In this document: piece by piece, positions 11,998-21,229 of the stretch | Layout of the letters: each line of letters starts with the position of its first letter | How positions within the stretch are numbered: position 1 is the stretch's first letter | Source: Alphaproteobacteria bacterium | GTDB taxonomy: Bacteria > Pseudomonadota > Alphaproteobacteria > UBA9655 | Direction: 5' to 3' | Assembly: GCA_013815465.1 (NCBI GenBank) | Contig: JACDGE010000016.1 | Coordinates: 1-35,945 of the forward strand | Length of the DNA stretch: 35,945 nt | Program-made: the position numbers and the translations under genes | Notes under the pieces: generated by a model | The model's database searches: none | Seen by the model: only the letters and a program-made list of their open reading frames with translations | Told to the model about the DNA's origin: nothing

Positions 11998-12984
11998 GTG
12001 TTTTCAGGGAAGCTGTTAAAATGGTATGCAAAAGCCCAACGCAAACTCCCCTGGCGCACAGACGTCAAAAACCCTTACCACACATGGTTAAGTGAAATTA
12101 TGTTGCAGCAAACAACGGTTGCAACAGTTATTCCCTATTTCAATGCCTTTATTAAAAGATGGCCCACGGTTCAGGACTTGTGTAGTGCATCTCTCGATGA
12201 AGTCCTGACCCAATGGCAAGGCCTGGGATATTACTCTCGAGCCCGCAACCTTCACAAATGCGCTCAAATTTTGGCGAAGGGATTCCCATCAACGGAAGAG
12301 GACCTCCTGAAACTTCCCGGCATTGGACCTTATACAGCGGCGGCCATTTCTTCCATCGCCTTTGATGAGCAAGCAGCAGCCGTTGACGGCAATGTGGTTC
12401 GGGTCATAAGTCGCTATTTTGCCATAGCCACCCTTAAGCCTACTTTAGAGATCAGGGAAAGGGTTAAAACCCTTTTGCCTACTGAAAAAAATGGGGATTT
12501 TACCCAAGCCTTAATGGAATTTGGGGCTCTGTTGTGCCGTCCAAAGAATCCTCTCTGCATAACCTGTCCTCTTCAGAGTGGCTGTCAAGCTTATATGCAG
12601 GGTAAGACGGAAAACTACCCGATGAAGGCCCCTAAGCGAAAGCTACCCACTCGCTATGCCACAGCTTTTATTTTAAGACGGGAGGATGGAGCAATTTTAC
12701 TGAGAAAGCGTCCCCTTCAGGGGCTACTGGGAGGAATGATGGAAGTCCCCTCAACTCCCTGGGTAGAAGAAAAGGATCAAGCAGATTGGAGCGGACCTAT
12801 TGTTCGGCACACGTTTACCCATTTCCATTTTGAAGTGAGAGTACAGCTTGTAACTGACTTGGAAGCTGTTGAAGGAGTGTGGGTTTATCCACAGGATTTG
12901 AAAAACTATGCCCTTCCAACTGTAATGAAGAAGATTATTGCGAGTGGTTTTAATAAAGAGTCATTGCACTCCTTTGTAGAATGA
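11998..12984 (+). CDS. mutY: Adenine DNA glycosylase MutY
   Basis: Removes adenine mispaired with 8-oxoguanine. The helix-hairpin-helix is LLKLPGIGPYTAA (103-115), the catalytic aspartate is D130 in AVDGNVVRV, and the general acid E33 lies in LSEIMLQQT. Four cysteines at 180, 187, 190 and 196 (C-6-C-2-C-5-C) bind the 4Fe-4S cluster. A NUDIX-like domain recognising 8-oxoG follows from about 215. 328 residues is slightly short because the C-terminal domain is compact. The start is a GTG; a TATAAT at 11973-11978 only 20 nt before suggests a short leader. The stop overlaps a tiny downstream reading frame by ATGA. Confidence 0.96.
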   Translation: MFSGKLLKWYAKAQRKLPWRTDVKNPYHTWLSEIMLQQTTVATVIPYFNAFIKRWPTVQDLCSASLDEVLTQWQGLGYYSRARNLHKCAQILAKGFPSTEEDLLKLPGIGPYTAAAISSIAFDEQAAAVDGNVVRVISRYFAIATLKPTLEIRERVKTLLPTEKNGDFTQALMEFGALLCRPKNPLCITCPLQSGCQAYMQGKTENYPMKAPKRKLPTRYATAFILRREDGAILLRKRPLQGLLGGMMEVPSTPWVEEKDQADWSGPIVRHTFTHFHFEVRVQLVTDLEAVEGVWVYPQDLKNYALPTVMKKIIASGFNKESLHSFVE

Positions 12985-13076: not shown

Positions 13077-13179
13077 GGGCTCCCTCGGAAAAGATCACTG
13101 ACTCTTTCTTTTCATCTAGCTCATGGGAGAGCTTTATGGAACGATAAAAGACGTCATAATTCTGGTGAGCGATATAAAA

Positions 13180-13310
13180 TAGGCCTCTTTCGAAACTCTA
13201 TATACTACCCTAAAGTTGTCATGCTGAACTTGTTTCAGCATCTAAAAGAGATCCCGAAACAAGTGGGGGATGACAGAGTGGTAGCGAGAATGAGTTTTGA
13301 AAGAGGTCTA
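13180..13310. mobile_element. MITE-like palindromic element, copy A
   Basis: A 131-bp element bounded by inverted ends TAGGCCTCTTTCGAAACT and AGTTTTGAAAGAGGTCTA, with TA at both outer edges. Inside are two inverted half-sites, GTCATGCTGAACTTGTTTCA and the complement-like TCCCGAAACAAG...GGATGAC. The reverse complement of 14493-14625 matches it almost along its length. No transposase is encoded. Ends and the TA edges recall IS5- or IS630-type elements, but the family is not certain. Confidence 0.8.
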
Positions 13311-13321
13311 AGGTTTCCCCT

Positions 13322-13358
13322 AACTTAAAAAGAAAAGGGAGAGATCTTGCGATCTCTC
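13322..13358 (-). terminator. Rho-independent terminator of the histidine-rich gene
   Basis: On the minus strand an 8-bp perfect stem GAGAGATC/GATCTCTC with loop GCAA (13339-13358) is followed by CCTTTTCTTTTTAAG. It begins 20 bp after the stop of the histidine-rich gene. Confidence 0.85.
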
Positions 13359-13378
13359 TCTATTTCCCTATTAGTTAT

Positions 13379-14065
13379 TTACTCTATAGTCTGAGGAGCA
13401 GCCGACATTCCTTCTTCCGTTGGCATGCCTTCTTTGTCCATTTCACCATGGGCTGCTGGGGCTTTATGCATTTTTTTGTCAGCGTGGTGATGGGCTTTCT
13501 TGGCCTTATGATGATGACCATGCTTATGCATGCCCTTATGACCTCTATGATGATCCCTATTTTGCATACGCTCAGAACCTATTTGAACTGGATATACTTC
13601 ATGAGGCGTCATGTTTTCGCGGTCAATATACACCTTATGGGGGTGTGCTTGGCTAGGATACCAATAAGCTCCATGCTGTGAATGGGCTGTATACCCGGGT
13701 AGCATGTTAGCTTGTGCGTGGGGATACCAAAAATATCCTTCATGCCAAATGTAGCAATGCTCTTGGTTACCTTGATAGTATTCTCGTTGACATGCATTAA
13801 ATGCAGGCGCATTCACCAGAGGATAGTTTACATAAACCGCCAATGCATGTTGACCGTGATGACCATGGAATCTATGAGCATGCTTGTGGCCGTGATGCTT
13901 GTGCGCATGGTGTTTGTGATGATGAGGACCGTTTTCTTTCCTCGCCATCTCATGTGCTGATGCACCTTCCTTCATTTCAGTTGACTTCTTGTGCGCATCT
14001 ACATTTGCATATGCATTCCCAAGAAGGGCAATGGCTGAAACTGTCGCTATAACAAAATTTTTCAT
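13379..14065 (-). CDS. Secreted histidine-rich protein, probable metal binder
   Basis: 228 residues, of which 38 are histidine. The N-terminus is a signal peptide (hydrophobic 4-17, then NAYA at about 20). Two His/Lys-rich blocks lie at 46-73 (HHHKHHAHKHHGHKHAH) and 172-206. Between them is a His-poor, aromatic domain (about 76-160) with NYPLVNAPAFNACQREYYQG, CYIWHEGYFWYPHAQAN and GAYWYPSQAHP, and two cysteines at 92 and 104. The blocks should bind Ni, Zn, Cu or Co; storage, scavenging or host-facing roles are all possible. The gene has its own terminator and lies between two inverted MITE copies, which suggests it could have moved as a unit. The family is not recognised. Confidence 0.8.
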   Translation of the reverse strand: MKNFVIATVSAIALLGNAYANVDAHKKSTEMKEGASAHEMARKENGPHHHKHHAHKHHGHKHAHRFHGHHGQHALAVYVNYPLVNAPAFNACQREYYQGNQEHCYIWHEGYFWYPHAQANMLPGYTAHSQHGAYWYPSQAHPHKVYIDRENMTPHEVYPVQIGSERMQNRDHHRGHKGMHKHGHHHKAKKAHHHADKKMHKAPAAHGEMDKEGMPTEEGMSAAPQTIE

Positions 14066-14201
14066 GGAACCTCCGTATTATTTTGTTGTTTGAAGATACA
14101 TTTGCATTCATACAAAACATATGGTGCAAATCTCCTTTAAATAGAGAATAACAACAAAAAGATTAAAATTTGATTAATGACCGAATCTTATTTTTCTAAA
14201 A

Positions 14202-14456
14202 TTATTTTCCTAAAGGAATACGAATGCCTAACTGAGGAACGATCGGGAGATATTTATCTGCAGGCAAATGATTTTCAATAGGTTTTTCGACAGGCGGCAT
14301 ATAGTCATATTTTGGCCTTTTCTTGTCCGGGTTTGCTTTCACGATAATCTCTGAATCAGAAAAAGAGGAGCAGGCAGTTATGCCAATACCCATAAGCCCA
14401 ATTAAAAAAAATTTTAACACTTCTCTTCTACCTTTTTTAGTCTGATTCTTGCCCAC
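14202..14456 (-). CDS. Small lipoprotein
   Basis: 84 residues with a basic start (GKNQTKKGRREV), a hydrophobic stretch (15-26) and a lipobox ITAC with the acylated cysteine at 29. The mature part is a short, proline- and lysine-rich chain (KRPKYDYMPPVEKPIENH) with no fold that I recognise. The listed start is a GTG without a clear Shine-Dalgarno. MITE copy B ends 37 bp upstream, so transcription may begin within or beyond the element. Direction and spacing (136 bp) allow cotranscription with the histidine-rich gene. Envelope location is inferred from the lipobox. Confidence 0.65.
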   Translation of the reverse strand: MGKNQTKKGRREVLKFFLIGLMGIGITACSSFSDSEIIVKANPDKKRPKYDYMPPVEKPIENHLPADKYLPIVPQLGIRIPLGK

Positions 14457-14492
14457 AATTCAATTTGCTTTGCTACGGAGCAGTGATATATT

Positions 14493-14625
14493 GGACCTCT
14501 TTCGAAACTTATTATCGCTACCACTCCACTGTCATCCCGAACTTGTTTCAGGATCTCTTTTAGATGCTGAAACAAGTTCAGCATGACAACTTTAGGGGAG
14601 TATAGAGAGTTTCGAAAGAGGTCTA
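14493..14625. mobile_element. MITE-like palindromic element, copy B
   Basis: A 133-bp element in the opposite orientation to copy A at 13180-13310. It has ends GGACCTCTTTCGAAACTT and GAGTTTCGAAAGAGGTCTA and the same inner half-sites, TCATCCCGAACTTGTTTCAG and CTGAAACAAGTTCAGCATGA, which can fold into a long hairpin. The inner half-site belongs to a motif common in bacterial intergenic repeats, which gives spurious peptides such as VMLNLFQHL. Confidence 0.8.
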
Positions 14626-14732
14626 TTTTACTAAAAATTTGAGCATGAGGGATGATACTGTCTGATATTTTAATCGTTCTTGTCATGAGTCGATCACTCC
14701 TCTTCATTATGTTTCATAATGCAACTCTCGCC

Positions 14733-16124
14733 CTAAACCAAGAAAAGGCTTGCGAGCCCTAAAAACGTTGCAAAACCTAATAAATCGGTGGTTGTTGTTA
14801 GAAAAGGACCGGCACTAATAGCAGGATCCATACCCATTCTATCAATAACAATCGGCAATATAGCCCCCCCTACGGCGGCCCATATCATATTAAGAATTAA
14901 GGCACACCCTAGAACCATTCCTAAGGCAGGGTCAGAAAACCAAAAGGCTGCAATTGACCCCATCATCGCACCAAAGACAACGCCATTAATAAGGCCCACA
15001 AAGGTTTCTTTCCAAATCGCTCGCTTCATATTAGACCCACCGAGTTCACGATTGGCAATAGCCCTTACAGTAACGGTCACGACTTGCATCCCTGCATTTC
15101 CACTCATTGCAGCACTTATGGGCATGAGAACAGCAAGAGCGACCATTTTTTCAATTGTATGTTGAAATTGAGAAATAACCGTCACAGCCATTAAGGTGTT
15201 TAAAAGTGTAATCATTAGCCAGCCAATGCGAGAATAGGAGGTACTTAAAAGAGGTTCAAAAAAGTCCGATTCGTTTACCCGCGCGAGATGCATAATATCT
15301 TCTTCAGCGGCTTCTTCGATCACATCTACCACATCATCAATGGTAATCATCCCTATTACACGGCCTTTCCCATCCACAACAGGGGCTGAAACAAGACCAT
15401 ACTTACGAAACAGCAACGCCACTTCTTCCGTGTCCATTAAGGCAGGAATACGCTTAATATCAGTGGACATAATATCTGTGATTTTTGTAGAGGGAGATTG
15501 GCGCAATAAAAAACTTAAAGGAACGCCTCCCAAAGGGATCCGATTGCTATCAACAACAAAAAGATCGTAAAATTTTTCTGGTATATTTTTTTCGCGAGGA
15601 ATGTAATCGATTGTTTCTTTGACAATCCAGGTACTAGGCACACAAACCACTTCTCGCTGCATCAAACGAGCGGCGCTATCTTCTGGATAGTTGAGGACTT
15701 CCTCTAAAATGAGACGCTCACCCGCCGGAATAGAATCGAGGATTTCTTTCTGTTGTTGCTCGTCTAAATCTTCAATGACAGCAACAGCTTCATCGCTCTT
15801 GAGACCTGTGATTGCCTCTGCGATCTCTTGGGTCCCTAATTGTTCAACAACTTCTTCACAAACAGTTTCATTAAGATAATAAAGAATATCAGGATCAAAA
15901 TGAGGACGTAAGTGTTCAATCAACTGATGGCGTAAGTTGGGAGAAAGATATTCAATAACAATAGCTACATCTGCTGCATGGAGAGGTTCGATAAGACGCT
16001 CAACGCGTGCCTCGTCAGCATTTTCAAGAGCGTCCTCAAGGGCACGGATGGTTTCTTGTGACACGCCATAAAGAGCTTCATTCTCTCCATGTTCTTGGGT
16101 CTGGAAATGCTCTTTTTCAATCAT
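14733..16124 (-). CDS. mgtE: Magnesium transporter MgtE
   Basis: 463 residues, standard length. MgtE is a Mg2+-gated Mg2+ channel in the inner membrane. Domains in order: MgtE N superhelical domain (about 30-135, with repeated LxxxxxxEVVEQL- and DEAVAVIEDLDEQQ-type helices), tandem CBS domains (about 140-265, with VVDGKGRVIGMITIDDVVDV) and five membrane helices from about 290, including the PISAAMSGNAGMQVVTVTVR pore segment. The gene ends close to the MITE-bearing gap and follows maeB by 6 bp on the same strand, so the two are probably cotranscribed. Confidence 0.95.
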   Translation of the reverse strand: MIEKEHFQTQEHGENEALYGVSQETIRALEDALENADEARVERLIEPLHAADVAIVIEYLSPNLRHQLIEHLRPHFDPDILYYLNETVCEEVVEQLGTQEIAEAITGLKSDEAVAVIEDLDEQQQKEILDSIPAGERLILEEVLNYPEDSAARLMQREVVCVPSTWIVKETIDYIPREKNIPEKFYDLFVVDSNRIPLGGVPLSFLLRQSPSTKITDIMSTDIKRIPALMDTEEVALLFRKYGLVSAPVVDGKGRVIGMITIDDVVDVIEEAAEEDIMHLARVNESDFFEPLLSTSYSRIGWLMITLLNTLMAVTVISQFQHTIEKMVALAVLMPISAAMSGNAGMQVVTVTVRAIANRELGGSNMKRAIWKETFVGLINGVVFGAMMGSIAAFWFSDPALGMVLGCALILNMIWAAVGGAILPIVIDRMGMDPAISAGPFLTTTTDLLGFATFLGLASLFLV

Positions 16125-20331: not shown

Positions 20332-20646
20332 ATGGAATATACGTATGTAGAACATGTTATTTATAAAATTTATGGGGCTTCATATGAAAAAACACGTTTA
20401 ATCTTGATGCTCGGGTCATCAGTTTTGATAATCAGTCCAACATTTTCCATGGAAAAAGACGCTTTTGAAGAAAATGATTTACCCTAAAATACTCGTCGTC
20501 AAGCTCAAAATCCTAGAGCCAAGGAAGCCAACAGAGCTCGTGTAGGGTATAGAGGGTTTTAACTTGGGATACAGATACCTTGTGTTCCTCCTGCCCAAAG
20601 CCAAATAAGAGGGCTTATGGATCCAGGCAGGGGTGGGCCAGCGTAA
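20332..20646 (+). pseudogene. Decayed paralogue (copy 1) of the secreted protein at 20836
   Basis: A single frame runs from the ATG at 20332 to 20646 with two in-frame stops (20485-20487 and 20560-20562). The piece LMLGSSVLIISPTFSMEKDAFEENDLP aligns with the signal peptide and early mature part of the intact neighbour (LLGLTIITIAPTFAMEPDDLEEKKLP). The first stop falls where the neighbour has Lys (AAA to TAA). The text beyond it, NPRAKEANRARVGYRGF, also resembles that protein. A TTGACA at 20304-20309 may be its old promoter. Clear relic, no product expected. Confidence 0.75.
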
Positions 20647-20764
20647 TAATCCAGATAATAACAATCAGCATAATGAGCCTCAATCTTAAAGATATCCATT
20701 TGTCCTGCCACAAACGCTCTTCCGTTAGGGAAAAAGTATACCAATGGCTTTTTAGATCGCGAAC

Positions 20765-20793
20765 TTGACACAGAATCTAAAATTAAATATATA
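20765..20793 (+). promoter_or_regulatory. Candidate promoter of the secreted protein gene at 20836
   Basis: TTGACA (20765-20770), 17-bp spacer, TATATA (20788-20793). A TATAAT also starts at 20790. The leader would be about 35 nt. Confidence 0.55.
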
Positions 20794-20835
20794 ATATCTA
20801 GTGGAACATATTAATATTATATTTTGGAGATTACA

Positions 20836-21126
20836 ATGAGGAGACACACTTTACCCGTGTTGTTAGGATTAACAATTATTACAATAGCGCCAACCTTTGC
20901 CATGGAACCAGACGACCTCGAAGAAAAGAAATTACCAAAACTTATTCTAAATCAAGACCCAAATTCTCGATCTAACGAAGACAACAGAGAGATTTACAGA
21001 GGGCAAGACGTATTTCGTCGGAGGGAGGATGGTAGTTGGGGTTTCAAACCTAACCCCTATATCCTTCCCCCGGAAATAGGTTATGACGTTATTGTTTCCA
21101 AACAAAACAGTGTACCTAAATCCTAG
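20836..21126 (+). CDS. Small secreted protein (copy 2, intact)
   Basis: 96 residues from the ATG, which has GGAG 6 nt before it; an in-frame TTG 12 bp upstream overlaps that site and is unlikely. A signal peptide (1-22, ending APTFA) is followed by an acidic start (MEPDDLEEKKLPK), a polar repeat-like stretch with SNEDNREIYRGQDVFRRRED, and GSWGFKPNPYILPPE. No cysteine. Not recognised in any family. Its final codons (KS, stop) sit at the junction with copy 3, so the present C-terminus may be a by-product of the duplication. Exported to the periplasm, membrane or host is inference. Confidence 0.6.
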   Translation: MRRHTLPVLLGLTIITIAPTFAMEPDDLEEKKLPKLILNQDPNSRSNEDNREIYRGQDVFRRREDGSWGFKPNPYILPPEIGYDVIVSKQNSVPKS

Positions 21127-21229
21127 AGCCAACGAAGACACCAGAGAGATTCACAGAGGGCAAGACGTATTTTGTCGGAGGATAAATGGCATCTGGAATT
21201 TTGAGTATATAAAGCTATGGCGTTACTAA
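21116..21229 (+). pseudogene. Partial paralogue (copy 3) of the secreted protein
   Basis: A 37-codon open piece without start codon. LNPRANEDTREIHRGQDVFC aligns with LNQDPNSRSNEDNREIYRGQDVF of copy 2, and the DNA is nearly identical across GAAGACA...GGGCAAGACGTATTT...GTCGGAGG. The piece then diverges and ends. It overlaps the last bases of copy 2 and looks like a head-to-tail partial duplication. Confidence 0.7.

Follow-up and report, generated by a model that had tools for sequence, protein, structure and literature searches.

Two IS5-derived MITEs flanking a histidine-rich and a lipoprotein gene are probably separate insertions beside native genes

Introduction

Several described systems resemble the elements considered here. 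MITECca01, from a Cardinium endosymbiont, is a short non-coding repeat that has its inverted ends in common with a resident IS (PMC9769881). ISCaa2 and ISCaa3 of Amoebophilus asiaticus (IS5 family, ISL2 group) are 914-916 bp long, with two ORFs, a predicted -1 frameshift and a 275-aa transposase, and relatives of both have been reported in other intracellular bacteria (PMC3196728). According to a review (PMC10969869), many Rickettsia palindromic elements (RPEs) sit in frame inside ORFs.

Here we examine a 35,945-nt stretch of alphaproteobacterial DNA (the window; contig C95 in a draft assembly of 2.26 Mb and 151 contigs), in which two short inverted elements enclose two genes. A sequence-only reading had proposed that the pair could move the enclosed genes as a unit, or that recombination between the copies could flip them. 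We conclude that the pair most probably (roughly 0.9) represents two separate, ordinary IS5-derived MITE insertions beside native genes, mobilized in trans, and not a mobile or invertible cassette.

Results

Two inverted elements with shared ends enclose two genes

The sequence-only reading had placed two elements of about 130 bp, in opposite orientations, at 13180-13310 and 14493-14625, and both an inverted-repeat search and BLAST recovered them (Table 1). The inverted-repeat search paired arms 13175-13276 and 14529-14630 (94% complementary) as well as 13276-13311 and 14491-14526 (89% complementary), and copy 1 used as a BLAST query found copy 2 with E = 2e-47. The copies are alike, but "near-identical," as they had been called, slightly overstates an identity of about 90% (0.90 in global alignment, 91% by BLAST). 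Both carry the shared inverted end GACCTCTTTCGAAAC with at most one mismatch: copy 1 ends in GGCCTCTTTCGAAAC and GTTTTGAAAGAGGTC (one mismatch each), and copy 2 matches exactly on both sides. The other structural claims of that reading also stand. TA occupies three of the four outer edges, namely both edges of copy 1 and one of copy 2, and the inner palindrome is confirmed by hairpin folding, in which the whole elements reach -60.8 and -67.0 kcal/mol (z = -9.1 and -10.9).

At 131-134 bp the element, which we call MITE-A, is well within the size of a MITE (less than about 300 bp) and is without coding capacity; the sole ORF of at least 80 aa that overlaps a copy, 14414-14707(-), is a mechanical and unsupported call. 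As had been noted, two genes lie between the copies. The strong hairpins may act as transcription terminators, one 3' of mgtE and the other where the mutY and His-rich genes converge. A search of the window against Rfam returned tRNAs only. Elsewhere in the window, 88-nt direct repeats that are 81% identical and spaced 157 apart lie at 20508-21201, along with related copies of 29 nt.

Table 1. Positions of the MITE-A pair, the genes at the locus and the family C copies
Feature	Position	Strand	Remarks
MITE-A copy 1	13180..13310, including flanking TA	+	element proper 13182-13308
MITE-A copy 2	14492..14625	-	element proper 14494-14623; TA at 14624-14625, TG (not TA) at 14492-14493
Inner double palindrome, copy 1	13217..13275 (59 nt)	+	TGTCATGCTGAA..TTCAGCATCT / AGATCCCGAAAC..GATGACA
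Inner double palindrome, copy 2	14530..14588	-	
Exported His-rich protein gene, native as judged by gene order	13379..14065	-	follows mgtE also in nine congeners
Small lipoprotein gene, native as judged by gene order	14202..14456	-	GTG start; orthologue directly 3' of mgtE in congener G005
mgtE, divalent cation transporter	14733..16124	-	upstream anchor of conserved gene order
mutY-like adenine glycosylase	11998..12984	+	convergent neighbor
Family C copies (L016-L025)	own genome (G000), contigs C114, C101, C98, C25, C138, C133, C83, C66, C75, C9		

MITE-A is dispersed and shares its ends with an IS5-family element

The genome search for the ends that had been suggested turned up scattered MITE-A copies and a matching IS5 3' remnant. 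Nine full-length copies, one near-complete copy, one split by another insertion and three truncated copies are dispersed over many contigs. The full-length copies show uniform pairwise identities of 86-92% with star-like divergence, and the two in the window do not stand out (0.90 to each other versus 0.86-0.90 to other copies, global identity); that no copies are identical suggests an old MITE-A burst. TA abuts the right-hand end (contig strand) in all 13 copies that preserve that end and precedes the left-hand end in about 8 of 12, so that most MITE-A ends lie beside TA, as expected of a target-site duplication like that of the parent IS described below. Among 93 other genomes searched, full MITE-A was not found, and the matches span the inner palindrome region only.

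The parent IS is present whole in two congeners (L081 and L082, in G003 and G005). It belongs to the IS5 family and is about 906 bp long (905-906 bp between TAs), with the same 15-bp ends, which read GACCTCTTTCGAAAC except for a single mismatch at one L081 end, and two overlapping frames. The coding region passes from one frame to the other near a stretch of A residues; a predicted -1 frameshift there would yield a 275-aa DDE transposase. L081 interrupts another transposase gene; when its flanks are joined with one TA removed, an unbroken 297-codon frame results, but not when both TAs are kept, which supports a 2-bp TA target duplication. The genome under study keeps one 3' remnant of this IS (L044), in which a lone end at C93:8058, near the contig edge and with terminal sequence identical to the MITE-A end, is followed by a transposase C-terminus. 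This 45-aa piece matches NCBIfam transpos_IS5_4 over the last 41 residues (E = 7.4e-10), below the curated whole-protein cut-off.

Thus, a transposase with the same ends does exist, as the sequence-only reading had anticipated, intact in congeners and as a remnant here. Since the draft genome yielded only this fragment and an intact parent transposase was not found in its 151 contigs, present-day mobility of MITE-A is unproven. Eleven other transposase sites in this genome (DDE_Tnp_1, PF01609 search) were considered as the parent and rejected, as none has MITE-A ends on both sides. Related IS whose ends are identical or almost so occur in genomes labelled Rickettsia, Legionella and Chlamydiales. 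The single genome of the Rickettsia endosymbiont of Bradysia coprophila holds about 40 nearly identical relatives of the parent IS (L182-L225).

Short, non-coding, dispersed and bounded by ends common to an autonomous IS, the elements are MITEs, as had been supposed. We considered instead that they might be primarily REP/BIME-like palindromes or terminators, with transposon-like ends that are incidental, a reading that accommodates both the very stable hairpins and the occurrence of the 59-nt double palindrome without MITE-A ends in this genome and in congeners. However, the 15-bp ends are exactly those of the autonomous IS5-type element and delimit the repeated unit at TA, and most of the extra palindrome copies in this genome sit inside another MITE family; we therefore regard this reading as unlikely.

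The double palindrome recurs between unrelated arms

That other family, the MITE-like family C (about 150 bp, about ten copies), has the ends TATAGTGCATTAAG / AACTCACTATA (TATAGTG..CACTATA); its arms are unrelated to those of MITE-A, but the double palindrome between them is the same. On contig C88, a family C copy is nested at a TA site in the loop of a MITE-A copy (L012 1501-1755; G000:C88:35217-35469), and thus at this site A is older than C. Family B (about 205 bp; L048, L050, L051, L056, L060 and the chimera L058) shares only its ends with MITE-A and carries the palindrome pair GATCCCGGC..GCCGGGATGACA. L058 itself appears to be a family B chimera that contains a MITE-A fragment. Copies of the double palindrome are also present in congeners, between unrelated flanks.

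From these arrangements, one might speculate that the 59-nt heterotypic double palindrome moves, or is selected, as a module in its own right and has come to reside in two MITE families that insert at TA and whose arms are unrelated, A (ends GACCTCTTTCGAAAC) and C (TAGTG..CACTA), with a related pair in family B, which shares the A ends; palindrome modules and transposon ends might then swap modularly. We consider this doubtful at present. A literature search for the palindrome core found no relevant paper among those listed. One partial Y1-transposase match was observed in this genome (C60).

The enclosed genes lie beside mgtE in relatives that lack the elements

Neither enclosed protein matched a Pfam or NCBIfam family; read by eye, the His-rich protein has a plausible, putative signal peptide at its N-terminus and the lipoprotein a putative lipobox (...GITAC/S). 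Homologues of the His-rich protein were found in 12 of the 15 genus genomes, including this one, and mgtE in 13 of the 15. In nine congeners (G002, G003, G006, G007, G009, G010, G012, G013 and G014), mgtE and the His-rich gene are neighbors on one contig in the order and on the strand seen in the window; the two genes are on separate contigs in G004 and G005, and no His-rich match was found in G008. The lipoprotein orthologue that directly follows mgtE in G005 is 48% identical. The MITE-A end, at up to three mismatches, is absent from all 15 stretches that were fetched. The congeners (mgtE 72-80% identity) are too distant for base-by-base alignment of the intergenic DNA.

Because the congeners keep the order and orientation relative to mgtE without MITE-A ends, the enclosed genes are, on this comparative evidence, native to the locus and unchanged in orientation. 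The sequence-only reading had named the presence of both genes in place in element-free relatives as a finding that would count against it. Each gene is indeed found beside mgtE in such relatives, although the exact mgtE-lipoprotein-His-rich order was not seen in any congener, just its two halves. On the other side of the locus, mutY is on other contigs in congeners and does not adjoin the His-rich gene in those examined, and the gene after the His-rich gene varies between congeners; thus, of the genomes examined only this one has the mutY junction. The His-rich protein, whose core resembles GYFWYPHARADMLPGY, is conserved beside mgtE across the genus and is a candidate metal-binding partner of MgtE.

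The other finding named as adverse, an element so scattered that pairing could occur by chance, also applies. With 11-18 copies in 2.26 Mb, a uniform model gives a probability of about 0.07-0.17 that at least one MITE-A pair falls within 1.4 kb; the model ignores confinement to intergenic DNA, which would raise this probability.

We also weighed the possibility that the segment is invertible, the two genes being flipped when the inverted copies recombine. Inverted copies of about 130 bp with about 90% identity could in principle recombine, and ectopic recombination between IS terminal inverted repeats has been reported (PMC3004938). However, the two genes lie in the same orientation to mgtE as in every congener that allows the comparison, the assembled contigs present only this one orientation, and a recombinase gene is absent beside the segment. 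Moreover, a 130-bp stretch at 90% identity is a weak substrate for RecA recombination. There is no indication that inversion by homologous recombination has taken place, and we consider an invertible segment very improbable. Also very improbable is a composite transposon-like unit, in which the two MITEs carried both enclosed genes as a block with a transposase in trans. The inverted flanking copies with intact outer ends and the MITE-flanked mobile blocks known elsewhere (review PMC10969869) would suit it. However, the His-rich and lipoprotein genes are at the mgtE locus in congeners free of the elements and so do not come and go with them, and this conserved gene order has already largely refuted the proposal. 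In addition, there is no second copy of the two-gene block in the genome, and the two MITE-A copies are not markedly each other's nearest relatives.

Discussion

The shared ends, the TA duplication by the IS, the scatter of the copies and the conserved gene order without elements point to two separate insertions. Under this model, the ~130-bp non-autonomous MITE-A would have inserted at TA, each copy independently, in a native mgtE-(lipoprotein)-His-rich cluster, and the genes would not have been carried in by it. An IS5-family transposase (DDE, 275 aa, predicted -1 frameshift) would act in trans, recognizing the end GACCTCTTTCGAAAC and duplicating TA. What looks like a gene cassette between inverted repeats can therefore be two unrelated insertions. 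The analysis also links an alphaproteobacterial MITE family to an IS5-type parent that has relatives in Rickettsia-, Legionella- and Chlamydiales-labelled genomes. Otherwise, this is ordinary mobile-element biology, with the palindrome modularity a mildly interesting by-product that may merit further work.

Like ISCaa2 and ISCaa3, the parent IS has two frames and a 275-aa fused product, here in 905-906 bp; unlike them, it resides in another lineage, its ends read as GACCTCTTTCGAAAC and it duplicates TA. It may be of the same kind, a likeness that is drawn from the published description and is not proven, with assignment to the ISL2 subgroup tentative. MITE-A resembles MITECca01, which also resides in an intracellular bacterium's genome as a short non-coding repeat with IS-shared ends. 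In contrast, MITECca01 derives from an IS982-family element and is about 240 bp long, and a REP-like palindrome pair is not among its described features as consulted here (PMC9769881). Finally, like REP/BIME and the RPEs of Rickettsia, itself an alphaproteobacterial genus, MITE-A is short, dispersed and strongly palindromic; unlike the RPEs, it has IS5-type ends and a TA target, and its copies in the window are intergenic.
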